NCBI GenBank assembly: GCA_017433615.1
Contig: JAFRGW010000026.1
Coordinates: forward strand, 1-45,948
Length of the DNA: 45,948 nt
Origin: Eubacterium sp.
GTDB taxonomy: Bacteria > Bacillota > Clostridia > Lachnospirales > Lachnospiraceae
Direction: 5' to 3'
The translations under genes were made by a program, and so were the position numbers. Below are positions 19,694 to 40,448 of this stretch, one piece after another. Position 1 is the stretch's first letter; each line of letters begins with the position of its first letter. Under the pieces are notes generated by a model. That model was not told the DNA's origin, made no database searches, and worked only from the letters and a program-made list of their open reading frames with translations.

Positions 19694-19849
19694 CCTCCTT
19701 TTTCACGGGGTACCTCCTTTGGCACCCTTTGGCATGGGGTACCTCCTTTGGCACGGGGTACCTCCTTTGGCACAGGGTACCTCCTTTGGCACTCCTTGTG
19801 CATGGAGTATCTCCTTTGCGCCTCTTTGTGCATGGAGGATCTCCCTGTG
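19694..19849. repeat. Tandem array of ribosome-binding-site-like units upstream of trmL
   Basis: On the minus strand AAAGGAGGTACC or a close variant (AAAGGAGATACT) occurs six times, at 19, 29, 19, 19 and 30 bp spacing. A shorter GGAG copy is near 19841. Most are followed four bases later by ATG or GTG (AAAGGAGGTACCCCATG, AAAGGAGGTACCCCGTG). This is a serial duplication of a translation start. On the other strand it runs up to the nth promoter area. Confidence 0.85.
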
Positions 19850-20607: not shown

Positions 20608-20958
20608 CCGTAGTATAACTGCTTTTACATTGAAATACTACGTCCAAATCTGGGAGCGTTACGTAGTATTTATAGTAATCCATCCATTTACTACGTAAAC
20701 AACAATTACTGTTACGTAGCAGAATAATGATTCTTGCTTCTACTACGTAAATTACAATTCCTGTTACGTAGTAGAATAAGAATATCTGTATTTACTACGT
20801 ATCTATCTTTAATAATGACGTAGTAAAAAGGCGAAAACATTGGATTACTACGTATGAACTTTTAATTGATACGTAGTAATTTAACTATATTGGTTTTTAC
20901 TACGTGATTACAACAAGATATTACGTAGTAAACGAACGCTATCCGGAAATAACTACGT
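20608..20958. repeat. Phased array of 14 alternating ACTACGT / ACGTAGT half-sites
   Basis: Forward cores ACTACGT start at 20637, 20690, 20742, 20794, 20847, 20899 and 20952. Reverse cores ACGTAGT start at 20661, 20766, 20818, 20871 and 20923; two variant cores lie at 20608 (CCGTAGT) and 20714 (ACGTAGC). Every forward-to-reverse gap is exactly 17 bp, making six 31-bp dyads. Dyads repeat at 52 or 53 bp (mean 52.5). Spacer sequences differ between units apart from a frequent A after and T before the cores. The region has no reading frame. It fills the gap between the nth and malQ 3' ends (20523-21102). No known site family was recognised. Confidence 0.9.
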
Positions 20959-21030
20959 AAAAGTGCCAATACGGTGTATTATTCCACATCCTCTTTTTTC
21001 TTTTACTTTGTCTCTTCCTTTCGGCTCCTC

Positions 21031-21138
21031 TTACAGCTCTTCCTGTGCCGCTTCCTTTCGGCTCCTTTTACAACTCTTCTTTGCCGTTTCCTTCCGCTCC
21101 TCTTACAACTCTTCTTTGCCGTTTCCTTTCGGCTCTTC
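21031..21138. repeat. Tandem repeat (35-37 bp, 3 copies) spanning the malQ stop codon
   Basis: Copies begin with TTACA at 21031, 21068 and 21103. The copy at 21103 contains the malQ stop codon and last codons (KGNGKEEL). The other two lie downstream of the stop and repeat the same ending, each with an in-phase TAA-like end. The gene's 3' end has thus been triplicated. Confidence 0.75.
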
Positions 21139-22659
21139 TTTCGATTCTTCTTTCGGTTCTTCCTTCGGCAGCCTTCCGTACAGCTTTGTCATGTCGTAGA
21201 TCGCCCGGCACAGTTCCTGCGACAGCAGGTGCGGCGTGACACGCCACTGCCAGTTTTCACCCATCGCGCCCGGTGTGTTGATCCGCGCCTCATTTCCTTT
21301 AACAAGATAATCCTGAATCGGAATGATGCAGAGGTCAGCTGATGAGCGGTGCGCCTCGCGGATAAAATCCCATGTGAACTGACCATAATCAGTAAAGATA
21401 GAATTGATGTATCTGCGCGCGAAGTCGCGGTCATGGTCGTTGATGCATTCAATCCACGCGCGCGTGGTCATGTTATCGTGTGTGCCGGTGTAGACGACAC
21501 AGTTCTTGACGTGGCGATAAGTCAGGTACTCGCTTGACTCGCTGCCGTCAAATGCAAACTGCAGCACTTTCATGCCCGGGAGGCCGGCATCATCACGCAG
21601 CTTCCGGATACTGTCCGTCAGGTTGCCGAGATCTTCGGCAATAATCGCGACATCGCCAAGTTCCTTGCGGATCGCATCAAACAGTGCGATGCCCGGTCCT
21701 TTGCGCAGTTCTCCGTTCTCGGCAGTCTTCTCGCCATACGGAATTGCATAGTAGGAATCCAGTCCGTTGAAATGGTCAATCCGGATTACATCGTAGAATT
21801 CATGATTCTTCTTGATGCGGCTGATCCACCATTTGAATCCGTCTTTCTTCATGAATTTCCAGTCATAGATCGGATTGCCCCAGAGCTGTCCGGTCGCAGA
21901 AAATGCATCCGGCGGCGTACCTGCGACATCAACCGGACGATGATCCGCACCGATCAGGAACTGCTCCTGATGTGCCCACGCATCTGCACTGTCCATAGCG
22001 ACGTACAGCGGAATGTCACCGATGATCTTAACGCCTTTCTCCGTCGCATATGCATGCAGGGCATCCCACTGCATGTGGAACATATACTGCTGGAAATAGA
22101 AAAATGCAATCTGGTCTGACAGCTCTTCTGCAGCTTCCTCAAGTGCCTTCTTATCCCTGCTGCGCAGGCCGGCATCCCAGCTGATCCATTCCTGTCCGTC
22201 ACGGCTGTTCTTAATTGCCCGGAACAGTGCAAAATCCTCCAGCCAGTATTTGTTTTCCTCCAGAAATGCAAGATATTCTTCTTCCTTCTGACCACCCTGC
22301 TCGACAAACCTGTCAAATGCAATGCGCAGAACTTCAAAGCGGCTGTTGTACAGCGCGCCGTAGTCAACACGCTCCGGATTGCTGCCAAAATCATACCGGC
22401 TGCATTCATCTTCCCGCAGAAGACCTCGCTTGATCAGATCCTCAAAACAAATGAAATAAGGATTTCCCGCAAATGTCGAAAATGACTGATACGGAGAATC
22501 GCCGAATCCGGTCGGACCGATCGGCAGAATCTGCCAGTAACGCTGTCCCGCATCATGCAGAAAATCCACAAACTCATACGCTTCTTTCGAAAAACATCCG
22601 ATTCCGTATCGGGACGGAAGGGATGAAATCGGATATAAAATACCACTTTCTCGCAACAT
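21103..22659 (-). CDS. malQ: 4-alpha-glucanotransferase (amylomaltase)
   Basis: 518 residues, GH77 family. It transfers maltosyl or longer glucan segments between alpha-1,4-glucans in glycogen and maltodextrin metabolism. Motifs: RESGILYPISSLPSRYGIG at the start, YQSFSTFAGNP, FDVIRIDHFNGL-type segment (IRIDHF with the nucleophilic Asp), IAEDLG with the acid/base Glu, and YTGTHDNMTTRAW. The C-terminus carries an odd charged tail (RLPKEEPKEESKEEPKGNGKEEL) made by a short DNA repeat that continues past the stop. The ATG at 22659 follows AGGAGGAGAAG; earlier in-frame ATGs would add an unrelated leader. It stands alone, with no other glycogen gene in the window. Confidence 0.95.
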   Translation of the reverse strand: MLRESGILYPISSLPSRYGIGCFSKEAYEFVDFLHDAGQRYWQILPIGPTGFGDSPYQSFSTFAGNPYFICFEDLIKRGLLREDECSRYDFGSNPERVDYGALYNSRFEVLRIAFDRFVEQGGQKEEEYLAFLEENKYWLEDFALFRAIKNSRDGQEWISWDAGLRSRDKKALEEAAEELSDQIAFFYFQQYMFHMQWDALHAYATEKGVKIIGDIPLYVAMDSADAWAHQEQFLIGADHRPVDVAGTPPDAFSATGQLWGNPIYDWKFMKKDGFKWWISRIKKNHEFYDVIRIDHFNGLDSYYAIPYGEKTAENGELRKGPGIALFDAIRKELGDVAIIAEDLGNLTDSIRKLRDDAGLPGMKVLQFAFDGSESSEYLTYRHVKNCVVYTGTHDNMTTRAWIECINDHDRDFARRYINSIFTDYGQFTWDFIREAHRSSADLCIIPIQDYLVKGNEARINTPGAMGENWQWRVTPHLLSQELCRAIYDMTKLYGRLPKEEPKEESKEEPKGNGKEEL

Positions 22660-36363: not shown

Positions 36364-37749
36364 TCACGATTCTGAATTTGTACTCAGCTGATCCAGATCC
36401 ATCTCCTGCAGCATCTGCAGATATACTGTCATATCCCCAAGAAAATCTCCGATCCGGAATCTTTCCTGCGCCCTGTCTTCGTAAATCTCAAAAAATGTTC
36501 TTCCCTGGTCAGCCGGGTTCAGATCGACATCTTTTGCATTTTCGCGCCAGGGATGGTCTTCCGGAAGGTGTTCATACGCAAAATTATGCTGCATCCATTC
36601 AAACGCCATATCTTCCGCTGTTCTTGTATCTTTTCCATCGCTGCTGCCATGAATGGTATGAATATCAAGCAGGGCCCCACAGATCATTTCCATATCTCCG
36701 GCATTCCGGATTTTCCAGGAATCAATGATTTTCCAGTTGTCCTCTGTGTACTGTGCAGTAAACGTCTGACCGTCATATACAAACACGTAATTCTGCCCAG
36801 ATCCGTCTGTATCCCGGAGTTCAAGCTGTTCCGCAGATGTAAGGGATGCCGTTTTGGGAATCAGATCAACTGATTTATACGTGCTGTCCTGATATTTTTC
36901 CGCTGCGATATGATTCAGAAGCAGATAATCTTCCAGCATCTGCGTCCGGAAGATTTCGCGGATGCTGATAAATGAATTCAATGATATATATGCCTGATAA
37001 TTCTCCCCGAAAATCCCTTCCGCAGTGTCATCCGCGGCAACATCCATATCTGTGACTTCGTATTCTATACCATTTCCTGCCTCTTCATCGGCAGCCATTT
37101 CGCGCAAATGCAGCATGCCCGGGACGTTTTCGGATGACACAGTCTGGAGAATATCTCCTTCCATTGTGTATTTATGACACCAGAACTCACCTGAGACCCT
37201 GATATCTTCGGGGTTACTCTCATCAATATCCACGATAAGCGGGCAGGGTATACATACATAATCCTTCCCCTGCTTTGAGCTTCCCTGATTCGAGCTTCCC
37301 TGATTCGAGCTTCCCTGATTCGAGCTTCCCTGATTCGAGCTTCCCTGATTCGAGCTTCCCTGATTCGAGCTTCCCTGATTCGAGCTTCCCTGATTTGAAC
37401 CCGTCGATTCGAAATCTCCCGCCAGATCACTGACAATATATACACAGATTGTTTGATACAGCGCGTCTGTTCCCGGATAATTATATACAGGAAAAGAAAA
37501 TGTGGCTGCTGTACTGTCTGTGCTGCTGCCATTTATACTGCCGGCTGCGGCGTCTGTGCTGCTGCCATCCATGCTGGCGGACGTATCATCCGGGACGCTT
37601 TCATCAGAATCATTCTCTACATTAGAAATCGCATCCGGTTCATAGCCGGGCTTTTCAAGCCATCTGCACCCGGACAAAAGAATCATGCAGGCCGTCACAA
37701 GCAGCAGACCTGTTAGTTTTTTCTTCATTTCCAAGAATTGCAAGTTCAT
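36364..37749 (-). CDS. Lipoprotein of unknown function with SNQGS repeats
   Basis: About 461 residues. The signal peptide MKKKLTGLLLVTACMILLSGC ends in a lipobox (LLSGC), so the protein is anchored outside the membrane. The N-terminal third is Ser/Asp/Gly-rich, with a stretch of eight SNQGS pentapeptides (residues about 115-160). A folded region (YQAYISLNSFISIREIFRTQMLEDYL, WQHNFAYEHLPED-like and DGQTFTAQYTEDNWKIIDSWKIR) makes up the C-terminal half. No family recognised. The ATG at 37749 follows GAGGTGTCAG, and another ATG at 37728 starts directly at MKKK. The upstream 31-bp units repeat this translation start. Confidence 0.7.
   Translation of the reverse strand: MNLQFLEMKKKLTGLLLVTACMILLSGCRWLEKPGYEPDAISNVENDSDESVPDDTSASMDGSSTDAAAGSINGSSTDSTAATFSFPVYNYPGTDALYQTICVYIVSDLAGDFESTGSNQGSSNQGSSNQGSSNQGSSNQGSSNQGSSNQGSSNQGSSKQGKDYVCIPCPLIVDIDESNPEDIRVSGEFWCHKYTMEGDILQTVSSENVPGMLHLREMAADEEAGNGIEYEVTDMDVAADDTAEGIFGENYQAYISLNSFISIREIFRTQMLEDYLLLNHIAAEKYQDSTYKSVDLIPKTASLTSAEQLELRDTDGSGQNYVFVYDGQTFTAQYTEDNWKIIDSWKIRNAGDMEMICGALLDIHTIHGSSDGKDTRTAEDMAFEWMQHNFAYEHLPEDHPWRENAKDVDLNPADQGRTFFEIYEDRAQERFRIGDFLGDMTVYLQMLQEMDLDQLSTNSES
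37277..37396. repeat. 15-bp perfect tandem repeat (8 copies) encoding SNQGS
   Basis: Unit GAGCTTCCCTGATTC on the plus strand, 8 copies from 37277 with almost no change. Unit length is a multiple of three, so copy-number change would lengthen or shorten the linker without breaking the frame. The near identity of copies suggests recent expansion. Confidence 0.95.
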
Positions 37750-39039: not shown

Positions 39040-39864
39040 TCACAGCAAATAATGCTGGATCAGCTGTGCAACCAAAGCTGTATTAAGAGGTGTATTTCTT
39101 GTTTCGGATGTGATGAGAAGTTTCTCGCCTGGATATATGTCATTTCTTTCATACAAAGCAATTCTTTTGATCGCATTTTCCGCATACTGTGGATCATCCA
39201 TCATGCCCAGATGCTCCAGATAGTATTCTTTTCTGGTGCGTTTATTCAACAGCATGAAGTCGGGATATATAACATTCCCATTCTGCAATTCCAGGGGATG
39301 TTCATATCTGTAGGGGATCTTGTTTCTCTCAAAGAGATCGGCAAGAATCTTTTCCGACTTTGACCGGACACGCTCGCCTTTCGCAGTATAGATCTCCGGG
39401 ACATTTTCGCCCAGCAGTTTGGCCTTATAAACCTGATTCTGCCAACTTTCGGCATATTCATCGTCTGGTAAATATTTTGTTGTAATCCGGCTCTTTCTCT
39501 CCGGATGACTCTCAGAGTAGATTCTTATCAAATTAGTATCACCATATACTGTTGAAACATTTTTTATCGCTTTATATCTGCTTTCCAAAGCCCTCAACAA
39601 CTTCTTCTCGTAATCTCTTTGTACAATCTTGTTCACTATTTCTAGATGTTCTCTCTTAATATATATGATCTTTTCCTTCGTCTTTCTTGGATCTTCATGA
39701 TTTCCTTCTTTCTGCATGGTTTGCATACAGAACTGGGTATGTTTCCCTCGTTGGTTTATTTTTAGACGTCCGGCTGGATATTCTTTTTGTTTTTCCTTGA
39801 GGATTCTTATTTCCTTTTCGAGATTTTCTTTTTCCCTTAAAACTGTTTTTACCAGATCACACAT
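39040..39864 (-). CDS. Putative PD-(D/E)XK nuclease-like protein (274 aa)
   Basis: No confident family. The N-terminal 100 residues are a charged coiled coil (ENLEKEIRILKEKQKEYPAGR; IKREHLEIVNKIVQRDYEKKLL). The C-terminal part has RSKSEKILADLFERNKIPYRYEHPLEL, VIYPDFMLLNKRTRKEYYLEHLG: a Glu in the first helix, a PD, then ExxxYYLEHLG, which is the pattern of many PD-(D/E)XK nucleases and restriction-like proteins (E...PD...ExK-like). The second acidic residue and a Lys are not in the textbook ExK order, so the activity is unproven. The ATG at 39864 has GGAGGAAATTCATT upstream. The 10-copy 53-bp minisatellite lies just upstream. Confidence 0.65.
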   Translation of the reverse strand: MCDLVKTVLREKENLEKEIRILKEKQKEYPAGRLKINQRGKHTQFCMQTMQKEGNHEDPRKTKEKIIYIKREHLEIVNKIVQRDYEKKLLRALESRYKAIKNVSTVYGDTNLIRIYSESHPERKSRITTKYLPDDEYAESWQNQVYKAKLLGENVPEIYTAKGERVRSKSEKILADLFERNKIPYRYEHPLELQNGNVIYPDFMLLNKRTRKEYYLEHLGMMDDPQYAENAIKRIALYERNDIYPGEKLLITSETRNTPLNTALVAQLIQHYLL

Positions 39865-39911
39865 AATGAATTTCCTCCATGAGCTGTGTTTTTATAATGT
39901 TTTCACTTTCC

Positions 39912-40448
39912 TGCCTGCCTGCACGCTCCCGCGCAGCTGGCGGTTTGACTTGTTTTGAGATTTCCGCCTGCCTACACACTTCCGCGCAGCTGGCGTCTTG
40001 ATTTGTTTTGAGATTTCCGCCTGCCACTACGCTCCCGCGCAGCTAGCGCCTTGATTTGTTTTGAGATTTCCGCCTGCCACTACGCTCCCGCGCAGCTGGC
40101 GGCTTGACTTGTTTTGAGATTTCCGCCTGCCTACACGCTCCCGAGCAGCTGGCGCCTTGATTTGTTTTGAGATTTCCGCCTGCCACTACGCTCCCGCGCA
40201 GCTGGCGCCTTGATTTGTTTTGAGATTTCCGCCTGCCACTACGCTCCCGCGCAGCTGGCGTCTTGATTTGTTTTGAGATTTCCGCCTGCCACTACGCTCC
40301 CGCACAGCTGGCGGTTTGACTTGTTTTGAGATTTCCGCCTGCCTACACACTTCCGCGCAGCTGGCGGCTTGACTTGTTTTGAGATTTCCGCCTGCCACTA
40401 CGCTCCCGCGCAGCTGGCGGCTTGACTTGTTTTGAGATTTCCGCCTGC
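39912..40448. repeat. 53-bp minisatellite, 10 copies
   Basis: The landmark CGCAGCT (or a one-base variant) falls at 39932, 39985, 40038, 40091, 40144, 40197, 40250, 40303, 40356 and 40409, exactly 53 bp apart. Copies are highly alike: TTGTTTTGAGATTTCCGC, then CTGCC, then CGCTCCCGCGCAGCTGGCG. Variation (GGTTTGAC or GGCTTGAC; CTACACAC or CACTACGC) is patchy, as from unequal exchange. 53 is not a multiple of three and no reading frame is kept through the array. It fills most of 39865-40594, upstream of the nuclease-like gene and after tuf. It is not a CRISPR array, since the whole unit is repeated and no unique spacers exist. Confidence 0.95.

Follow-up and report, generated by a model that had tools for sequence, protein, structure and literature searches.

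The ACTACGT array between nth and malQ

The window analysed here, that is, the whole stretch of 45,948 bases of Eubacterium sp. contig JAFRGW010000026.1 (positions 1 to 45,948), carries in the convergent gap between nth (+ strand) and malQ (– strand) an array of short inverted sequences at 20608..20958, referred to below as the ACTACGT array and assigned to neither strand. A second array of the same geometry lies farther along the window, directly upstream of a gene for a nuclease-like protein, and the relation between such arrays and the family of this protein is the subject of this report. The gene labels used throughout (nth, malQ, tuf, mnmE, mnmG, AraC and transporter) were given by eye, without a family search, and are presumptive.

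The ACTACGT array holds, within 351 bp, seven forward and seven reverse half-sites, 12 of the 14 being exact ACTACGT; the two inexact copies, both in reverse orientation, are the first (CCGTAGT) and the one at 20714 (ACGTAGC). The starts of the forward half-sites follow each other in steps of 53, 52, 52, 53, 52 and 53 bp and those of the reverse half-sites in steps of 53, 53, 52, 52, 53 and 52 bp. An earlier sequence-only reading of this DNA had described the position of the array, the strict alternation of the 14 half-sites and both spacing series, all of them exact on recheck; its statement that all six dyads have the form ACTACGT-N17-ACGTAGT holds for five, the sixth being imperfect owing to the ACGTAGC at 20714. 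Exact ACTACGT occurs 12 times in the window, every time inside the array, with about 6.4 occurrences expected over both strands. A scan of the window over gaps of 8-39 and periods of 30-89 ranked gap 17 with period 53 at the top, tied with gap 22 and period 53, a score fed by both arrays of the window.

The proposed period of five turns at 10.5 bp per turn is borne out, forward and reverse starts each being phased by themselves (R = 0.98 for either set, falling at 10.0 bp to 0.14 and 0.05, respectively). The joint 10.5-bp phase of all 14 half-sites depends on how they are centred, with R = 0.63 for ACTACGT, 0.94 for CTACGTA and 0.98 for TACGTA. In this array, the spacers have come close to saturation and the half-sites have stayed intact: mean ungapped identity is 0.37 for N17 and 0.40 for N21/22, with 0.31 expected from base composition, and 0.96 for the half-sites. 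The sequence-only reading, in which spacers had diverged and half-sites been kept, is thus sound for the array as a whole, with the exception of the units at 20690 and 20742, whose N17 spacers are 82% identical and which look like a recent local copy. No Rfam covariance model matched anywhere in the window at gathering scores.

The repeating unit had been taken to be the N17 dyad, which is probably the wrong choice. Most of the arrays compared start with a reverse half-site and finish with a forward one, and across genomes the reverse-to-forward spacing is nearly constant (about 30-31 bp, in a shifted register) while the other spacing varies; for these reasons, the conserved module is read as ACGTAGT-N21/22-ACTACGT. 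The array then consists of seven modules, of which the first (20608..20643) is CCGTAGT-N22-ACTACGT and the third (20714..20748) ACGTAGC-N21-ACTACGT; the second (20661..20696), fifth (20818..20853) and seventh (20923..20958) have the form ACGTAGT-N22-ACTACGT, and the fourth (20766..20800) and sixth (20871..20905) the form ACGTAGT-N21-ACTACGT, all without strand assignment.

Further arrays in the same genome and a nuclease-like gene

The genome to which the window belongs (G000) is represented by an assembly of 2.97 Mb in 173 contigs, with a completeness of 94% and a contamination of 6.9%. Exact ACTACGT dyads occur in it at two loci, the window and contig C62. The C62 array (11649 to ~11920) has the half-site order of the window array and spacings of 52-54 bp, its spacers are unrelated, and it is thus a further array with the same 17-bp gap and period, such as the sequence-only reading had asked for. 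It lies in a divergent gap flanked by two genes that, by eye, resemble those of a transporter and of an AraC-type protein; the window array lies at the 3' ends of both its neighbours. Three further places in G000 that match with two mismatches were treated as chance, the reversed control having given 33.

The second window array (39912..40448, no strand assigned) is made of CGCCTGC-N17-GCTGGCG pairs with a period of 53, in near-identical units (91% matches), between tuf and the gene of a 274-aa protein (39040..39864, – strand), to which it is directly upstream. G000 therefore carries two half-site types, ACTACGT and CGCCTGC. This array, which has the geometry of the lattice at 20608..20958 and lies next to the gene of a candidate binding protein (39040-40448 together), was not linked with the lattice in the earlier reading.

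The 274-aa protein belongs to an unnamed family and consists of a variable N-terminal part and a C-terminal domain (about residues 160-274) of PD-(D/E)XK type. Among the array-flanking genes listed, this is the one family that recurs: orthologues in G001 and G003 also adjoin tuf and an array, and a 29%-identical homologue adjoins an array in G207, which is of another genus and has other surroundings. Homologues of the G207 protein were found in 124 of 397 sampled genomes of the family (E ≤ 1e-8), with at least six in one genome at the maximum (no more than six candidates having been scored). For the window protein, Pfam gave nothing at E ≤ 1, and in NCBIfam nothing came close to a cut-off. Of 51 homologues, at most two were matched by any one Pfam family (E ≤ 0.1) and not one by NCBIfam (E ≤ 1e-3). 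In an alignment of these 51 sequences, most of which were taken from array-bearing loci, E171, P201-D202 and E217 are invariant in 51/51 and correspond to the acid of the first helix, the PD motif and the acid of the next strand. The predicted structure has the alpha-beta-beta-beta-alpha-beta core of the PD-(D/E)XK superfamily, and on this model the C-terminal domain is of that type and nuclease-like.

A sequence-profile search of the PDB gave no credible match (best E 0.25). Among viral sequences, a search with P0001 alone confirmed no homologue, and a search with the alignment returned nine loci matching in the nuclease domain only, with no array at threshold; among plasmids, seven records matched, again in the nuclease domain only. 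A 4.2-kb human gut contig labelled as phage (MT839528.1) encodes a homologue that aligns with 76% of the window protein at 36% identity, and no array was detected at this locus at the detector threshold.

Arrays at the loci of homologues

Arrays were sought with a detector blind to half-site sequence, which requires a half-site distance of 14-59, a period of 36-109 and two or more pairs of consecutive units. The detector was applied to 90 homologue loci, namely 30 given loci and the next 60 down the match list (two near contig starts being skipped), and was positive at 59, of which 47 have the array upstream of the gene, nine downstream and three inside it; the three inside positives may be chance, and in four of the 47 upstream cases the matches are scattered. 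In controls, two of 111 fragments, each of 4.5 kb and taken from other loci, were positive, one of them (from G002) itself array-like, and none of 270 dinucleotide shuffles. Upstream arrays lie within 700 bp of the gene in 43 cases and about 2 kb away in one.

All 59 periods fall near 5, 6, 7, 8 or 10 helical turns, with 12 at 52-54, 23 at 61-64, 18 at 73-75, four at 84-86 and two at 106, the last of which may be twice 53 (for locus L249 they are). Fitted to 10.5 bp, the 59 periods have R = 0.89 (Rayleigh p ~5e-21; best fit 10.59 bp), and for 25 upstream loci whose proteins are less than 50% identical, R = 0.93 with a best fit of 10.56, an R as high being reached by none of 20,000 random period sets. 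A half-site distance of about 28-31 is common to many arrays and the second distance lengthens with the period; in the 53-bp arrays, the two distances were often merged in this analysis. The earlier proposal, selection for the binding of a protein along a single DNA face, is supported by these periods, quantised at about 10.5 bp, and by the C62 array.

Half-sites track the relatedness of the proteins beside them. Over 58 arrays, half-site similarity correlates with N-terminal identity (Spearman 0.14, Mantel p = 0.0005) and with C-terminal identity (0.13, p = 0.0005), two of the 90 proteins having been left out of the alignment for length; among pairs with more than 50% N-terminal identity, seven of ten share at least six of the seven half-site bases, compared with about 1% of pairs below 35%. 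Arrays with a TACGTA core beside homologues in G375, G045 and G030 suggested at first that the missing ACTACGT cognate had been found, a reading that was dropped. No cognate is claimed, because, on our reading of the sequences, in G375 and G045 the flanking bases are opposed relative to the 31-bp module and in G030 the core is without the ACT flank. Upstream of a second homologue in G001 (L262:1-320, contig C32) there is a GC-rich repeat with palindromic GGGCGGCG blocks, which was not called as an array.

Arrays in sister species and other genera

As for conservation in relatives, the exact dyad ACTACGT-N17-ACGTAGT was found in its own genome only among 195 genomes searched, being absent from the other 194, and the architecture recurs with other half-sites. 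With one mismatch allowed, the dyad was again limited to G000 among the five genomes of the genus; the exact module, searched in 397 genomes of the family, gave G000 and one single terminator-like hairpin (G059). The exact triple pattern matched two stretches of genome contigs, one from a euryarchaeote and one from a Bacteroidales metagenome-assembled genome, both taken as chance, and no stretch of viral contigs.

In sister species, the nth-malQ gap, with flanks 82-91% identical, holds a CGCCTGC array in G001 and a TGCATGC array in G003, both of the form 7-N17-7 with a period of 53. TGCATGC-N17-GCATGCA, with up to one mismatch, occurs 94 times in G003 and 3, 1, 0 and 0 times in G000, G001, G002 and G004, respectively. 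CGCCTGC-N17-GCTGGCG, likewise with up to one mismatch and on both strands, occurs 43 times in G000 (three places being counted twice), 19 in G001, 7 in G002, 4 in G003 and 1 in G004. The low CGCCTGC counts are read as chance in view of those obtained with the reversed pattern (G000 2, G001 1, G003 0, G002 5 and G004 4). The TGCATGC dyads of G003 form at least 17 clusters on at least 14 contigs; several clusters sit where a contig ends, and two such clusters may represent a single split array. This number runs counter to the earlier suggestion of a single centromere or partition site. At about position 26521 of contig C38 in G002 (L044:16521), inverted GATGGCA half-sites with a period near 51-53 look like an array.

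A covariance model built from two-unit segments of equal length had matches in eight of 250 genomes of the family (E ≤ 0.001, strict filters), seven of which were arrays on inspection; the eighth, a match of model R1 in G208, was read as one isolated hairpin. The half-sites in other genera are CGATGCC (G326), CTATGCC (G207 and G053), GTATGCC (G089) and ATACAGAC (G056). In these genera, spacings alternate between 30-31 and 21-23 (period 52-54) or between 30-31 and 42-43 (period 73-74), the shorter and the longer second spacing differing by about 21, that is, two helical turns; one array of the 22 type ends with a 43 step and one of the 43 type starts with a 22 step, with imperfect half-sites. 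Gene-less arrays also occur here, on contigs C120 and C91 of G326, C10 and C17 of G089 and C9 of G053 (L141, L133, L134, L142, L136 and L143), and have ATGCC in common across genera.

Covariation between half-sites and spread within genomes

When half-site types are pooled, both arms covary, as they would in hairpins. This reading was dropped because the covariation vanishes within G003 and reflects arms that differ together between array types. In 92 dyads of G003, whose half-site consensus is about HGCATGYY, the variable outer position agrees between the two half-sites in 50, whereas independence predicts 54; two further positions and the other pairing are also without excess equality, and the R-F pairing has one position with fewer equal cases than expected (43 of 91 against 51.1; mutual-information p ~0.01), which is the opposite of pairing.

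As to how arrays come to occupy many gaps, six arrays of G003 that were picked by eye, some of them truncated where a contig ends, can be aligned along the greater part of their length. The mnmE-mnmG gap holds an array of about half a kilobase in G003 and only tens of bases in G001 and G004, in a comparison in which G000 lies at a contig end and G002 gave no match. The tuf-array-gene locus is common to G000, G001 and G003, with an array 85% identical between G000 and G001 and of another half-site type in G003; its tuf flanks are 93-98% identical and the flank on the side of the nuclease-like gene 71-79%. A 14-bp inverted repeat, AAATCGGGGTTTGC, bounds two G003 arrays (L095:202 and 660; L101:3214 and 3621), and a similar sequence, with no array seen, adjoins mnmG where a contig of G000 ends (near the end of L276). 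The repeat as element ends was dropped, being clear at only two arrays, weak or missing at the others and matched by the like sequence in G000. With respect to miniature inverted-repeat transposable elements (MITEs), there are thus inverted ends at two arrays of G003, one filled locus with two empty counterparts, and no established target duplication.

Other repeats in the window are a 35-bp tandem repeat (21015-21153), which encodes a repetitive charged C-terminal tail of malQ (KEEPKEESKEEPK-like) and, as judged by eye, is reduced in length or missing in the orthologues from G001 and G003; a 19-bp tandem repeat of 3.5 copies (19726-19792) between a gene that looks by eye trmL-like and nth; and a 15-bp repeat (37268-37395; 8.5 copies, 98% matches), which encodes a Q-G-S-S-N run in a putative lipoprotein.

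Interpretation

The lattice at 20608..20958 is very probably a phased protein-binding array, that is, an array of double-stranded sites. Within a module, about three helical turns separate the two inverted half-sites; from one module to the next the distance is five turns here and six, seven or eight in other arrays, which would put equivalent half-sites on one face of the DNA. In general, it is quite likely that arrays of this kind are the cognates of single-gene PD-(D/E)XK nuclease-like proteins; for the ACTACGT array itself, the same assignment is probable, with less assurance. Each protein lineage would have its own half-site, presumably read by the variable N-terminal part, and its own array before its gene, to which the protein would bind cooperatively, as to an autoregulatory operator. 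Gene-less arrays would arise or persist by nuclease-aided copying, through a cut and its repair, and would remain matched to a cognate protein; whether arrays do combine the function of operators with a mechanism of dispersal we judge to be an even matter. The ACTACGT array would then be a gene-less array of a paralogue missing from the assembly or recently lost. If selection kept its sites, a binding protein would have to have been there until not long ago, because the spacers are near saturation beside intact half-sites. To this explanation as a whole (one-face binding arrays of a nuclease-like family, autoregulatory and dispersed, with the ACTACGT array gene-less), we give a probability of about two in three.

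Several observations weigh against it. No array was found at threshold at 31 of the 90 homologue loci; a weak upstream pair is present in 17 of these 31, mostly with whole-turn periods, at a level below threshold and without a matching control. The overall correlation between protein and half-site is weak and does not favour the N-terminal part over the C-terminal one, and shared descent of gene and array could explain part of it. The N-terminal part of the structure model has low confidence, so its role as DNA reader is a guess, and the third motif of the nuclease-like domain is E-H-x-G, where the textbook motif is (D/E)-x-K. A profile search (E ≤ 0.1) found one homologue in G000, and its array is CGCCTGC; for the ACTACGT arrays, the assembly thus offers no cognate gene. 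In G326 and G053, the half-site of the gene-less arrays is not that of the arrays adjoining the homologues of the same genomes, G089 has gene-less arrays with no array detected at its homologues, and G002 has an apparent array, yet no homologue was found there; the gene-less arrays with ATGCC perhaps belong to a second, related protein group. Finally, the placement of all 14 half-sites of the ACTACGT array on one face requires centring on TACGTA or CTACGTA.

A bolder version is a self-copying address system, in which each nuclease would polymerise along one face of its array, repress its own gene there and, through cutting and repair, spread arrays to intergenic gaps and convert older ones to its current half-site; we regard it as doubtful. 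If it were true, a whole genome would switch its half-site "address" in step, sister species would hold different half-sites in the same gaps, and the whole-turn period would be set by the geometry of the oligomer.

Among the alternatives to nuclease-associated binding arrays, one is that the arrays organise the nucleoid or chromosome, the nuclease-like protein being structural with a kept fold, or another architectural protein binding. The many arrays per genome (the at least 17 clusters of G003), their presence in convergent, tandem and divergent gaps, the one-face phasing and the occupation of some of the same gaps in sister species would all suit such a role. It is nevertheless unlikely, since the catalytic-type residues invariant in 51/51 sequences would be needless for a purely structural protein, and since the presence of the family in 124 of 397 genomes implies that it does not serve a core function; moreover, two half-site types can occur in one genome, as in G000. 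It is most improbable that the arrays are ordinary cooperative operators of a transcription factor controlling neighbouring genes. The inverted half-sites, the helical phasing, the 47 of 59 arrays upstream of the nuclease-like gene and the C62 array beside an AraC-type gene are as expected of operators; however, the window array sits between the 3' ends of convergent genes, the neighbours of gene-less arrays are, by eye and among the genes listed, without a common theme, and half-sites vary between arrays of one genome.

Equally improbable are non-autonomous mobile elements moved by an unrelated transposase, with incidental phased sites. They would account for the six alignable G003 arrays, for the filled and short mnmE-mnmG gaps and for the 14-bp inverted repeat around two arrays, but not for the association with the nuclease-like gene or for the phasing, and the weak or missing repeat elsewhere, its like in G000 and the want of an established target duplication speak against them. 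A passive tandem satellite, or tandem hairpins of RNA or single-stranded DNA (terminator-like or REP-like), would be in keeping with the near-identical units of some arrays (39912-40448; 20690 and 20742), with dyads that could fold and with arms that change together over half-site types, but is hardly credible given the saturated spacers beside intact half-sites, the independent variation of F and R half-sites in G003 without compensatory pairing, the lack of Rfam matches in the window and the whole-turn periods of many arrays, unexpected for either.

If nuclease-associated binding arrays are indeed what these loci hold, they would add a further kind of pairing between a dispersed repeat and a dedicated enzyme to those known from REP and RAYT and from insertion sequences (IS) and MITEs, in a large bacterial family, probably Lachnospiraceae to judge by its many genera and its gene content, in which about three in ten sampled genomes (124/397) have the gene. 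The quantised periods would provide a natural series for the study of helical-phase control in cooperative assembly, and the diversity of half-sites would supply many protein-site pairs for a recognition code.

Comparison with known systems

The arrays and the nuclease-like genes are apparently parts of a bacterial system that has not been described; at title level and outside subscription journals and preprints, the literature gave no description of such arrays or of their pairing with a nuclease. In repeat form, they depart from CRISPR, which has direct repeats of 24-48 bp with unique spacers and is accompanied by cas genes, the repeats here being half-sites of 7-9 bp in alternating orientation (a comparison of repeat form only, made with neither a CRISPR program nor a search for cas genes). 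Centromere arrays of plasmids and chromosomes (sopC, parS, iterons) are likewise tandem sites, some with inverted half-sites, that are bound cooperatively; centromeres of the parS or sopC kind occupy one locus or a few, beside a ParA/ParB-type operon. They differ from the arrays described here in that G003 has at least 17 clusters and the partner is nuclease-like, and no ParA/ParB-type neighbour was recognised by eye among the array-flanking genes listed.

With regard to enzymes of the same fold, namely homing and Vsr-type PD-(D/E)XK endonucleases (I-Bth0305I, Vsr), TnsA and Bax1, no sequence family fits the proteins described here in the Pfam and NCBIfam searches given above, and we know of no phased target array for any of these enzymes. 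The C-terminal nuclease domain is related to that of the PADLOC candidate models PDC-S68 (E 1.5e-28 for the window protein), one model of which matches 51/51 homologues. The PDC-S68 models have about 1,200 residues and match over the last ~160, whereas the proteins described here have about 270 aa, another N-terminal half, and loci that carry arrays.

The nearest known logic is that of REPIN/RAYT (REP-TnpAREP, REPtron), although the enzyme fold, the hairpin and the foot motif do not fit; on the reading preferred here, the arrays would be dispersed in a similar manner by unrelated parts. These systems consist of dispersed extragenic inverted repeats with clusters adjoining the gene of a DNA-cutting enzyme, each enzyme having its own repeat sequence and co-evolution of the two having been proposed (PMC3116915, PMC8266576, PMC3733652). 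RAYT is a HUH/Y1 tyrosine transposase, and the protein described here has a domain of PD-(D/E)XK type; by Pfam and fold, the array-adjacent window protein is no HUH/Y1 transposase, Y1 genes elsewhere in the genome not having been searched for. No hairpin constraint links the half-sites, as judged from the TGCATGC type of G003 alone, and the GTAG (or CGTC) foot is absent from the HGCATGYY and CGCCTGC half-sites, GTAG in the ACTACGT type being merely part of the reverse complement of the half-site. In common with REPIN/RAYT, each enzyme lineage here has its own repeat beside it; what sets the present arrays apart is that their half-sites are phased on one face of the DNA, with whole-turn periods.
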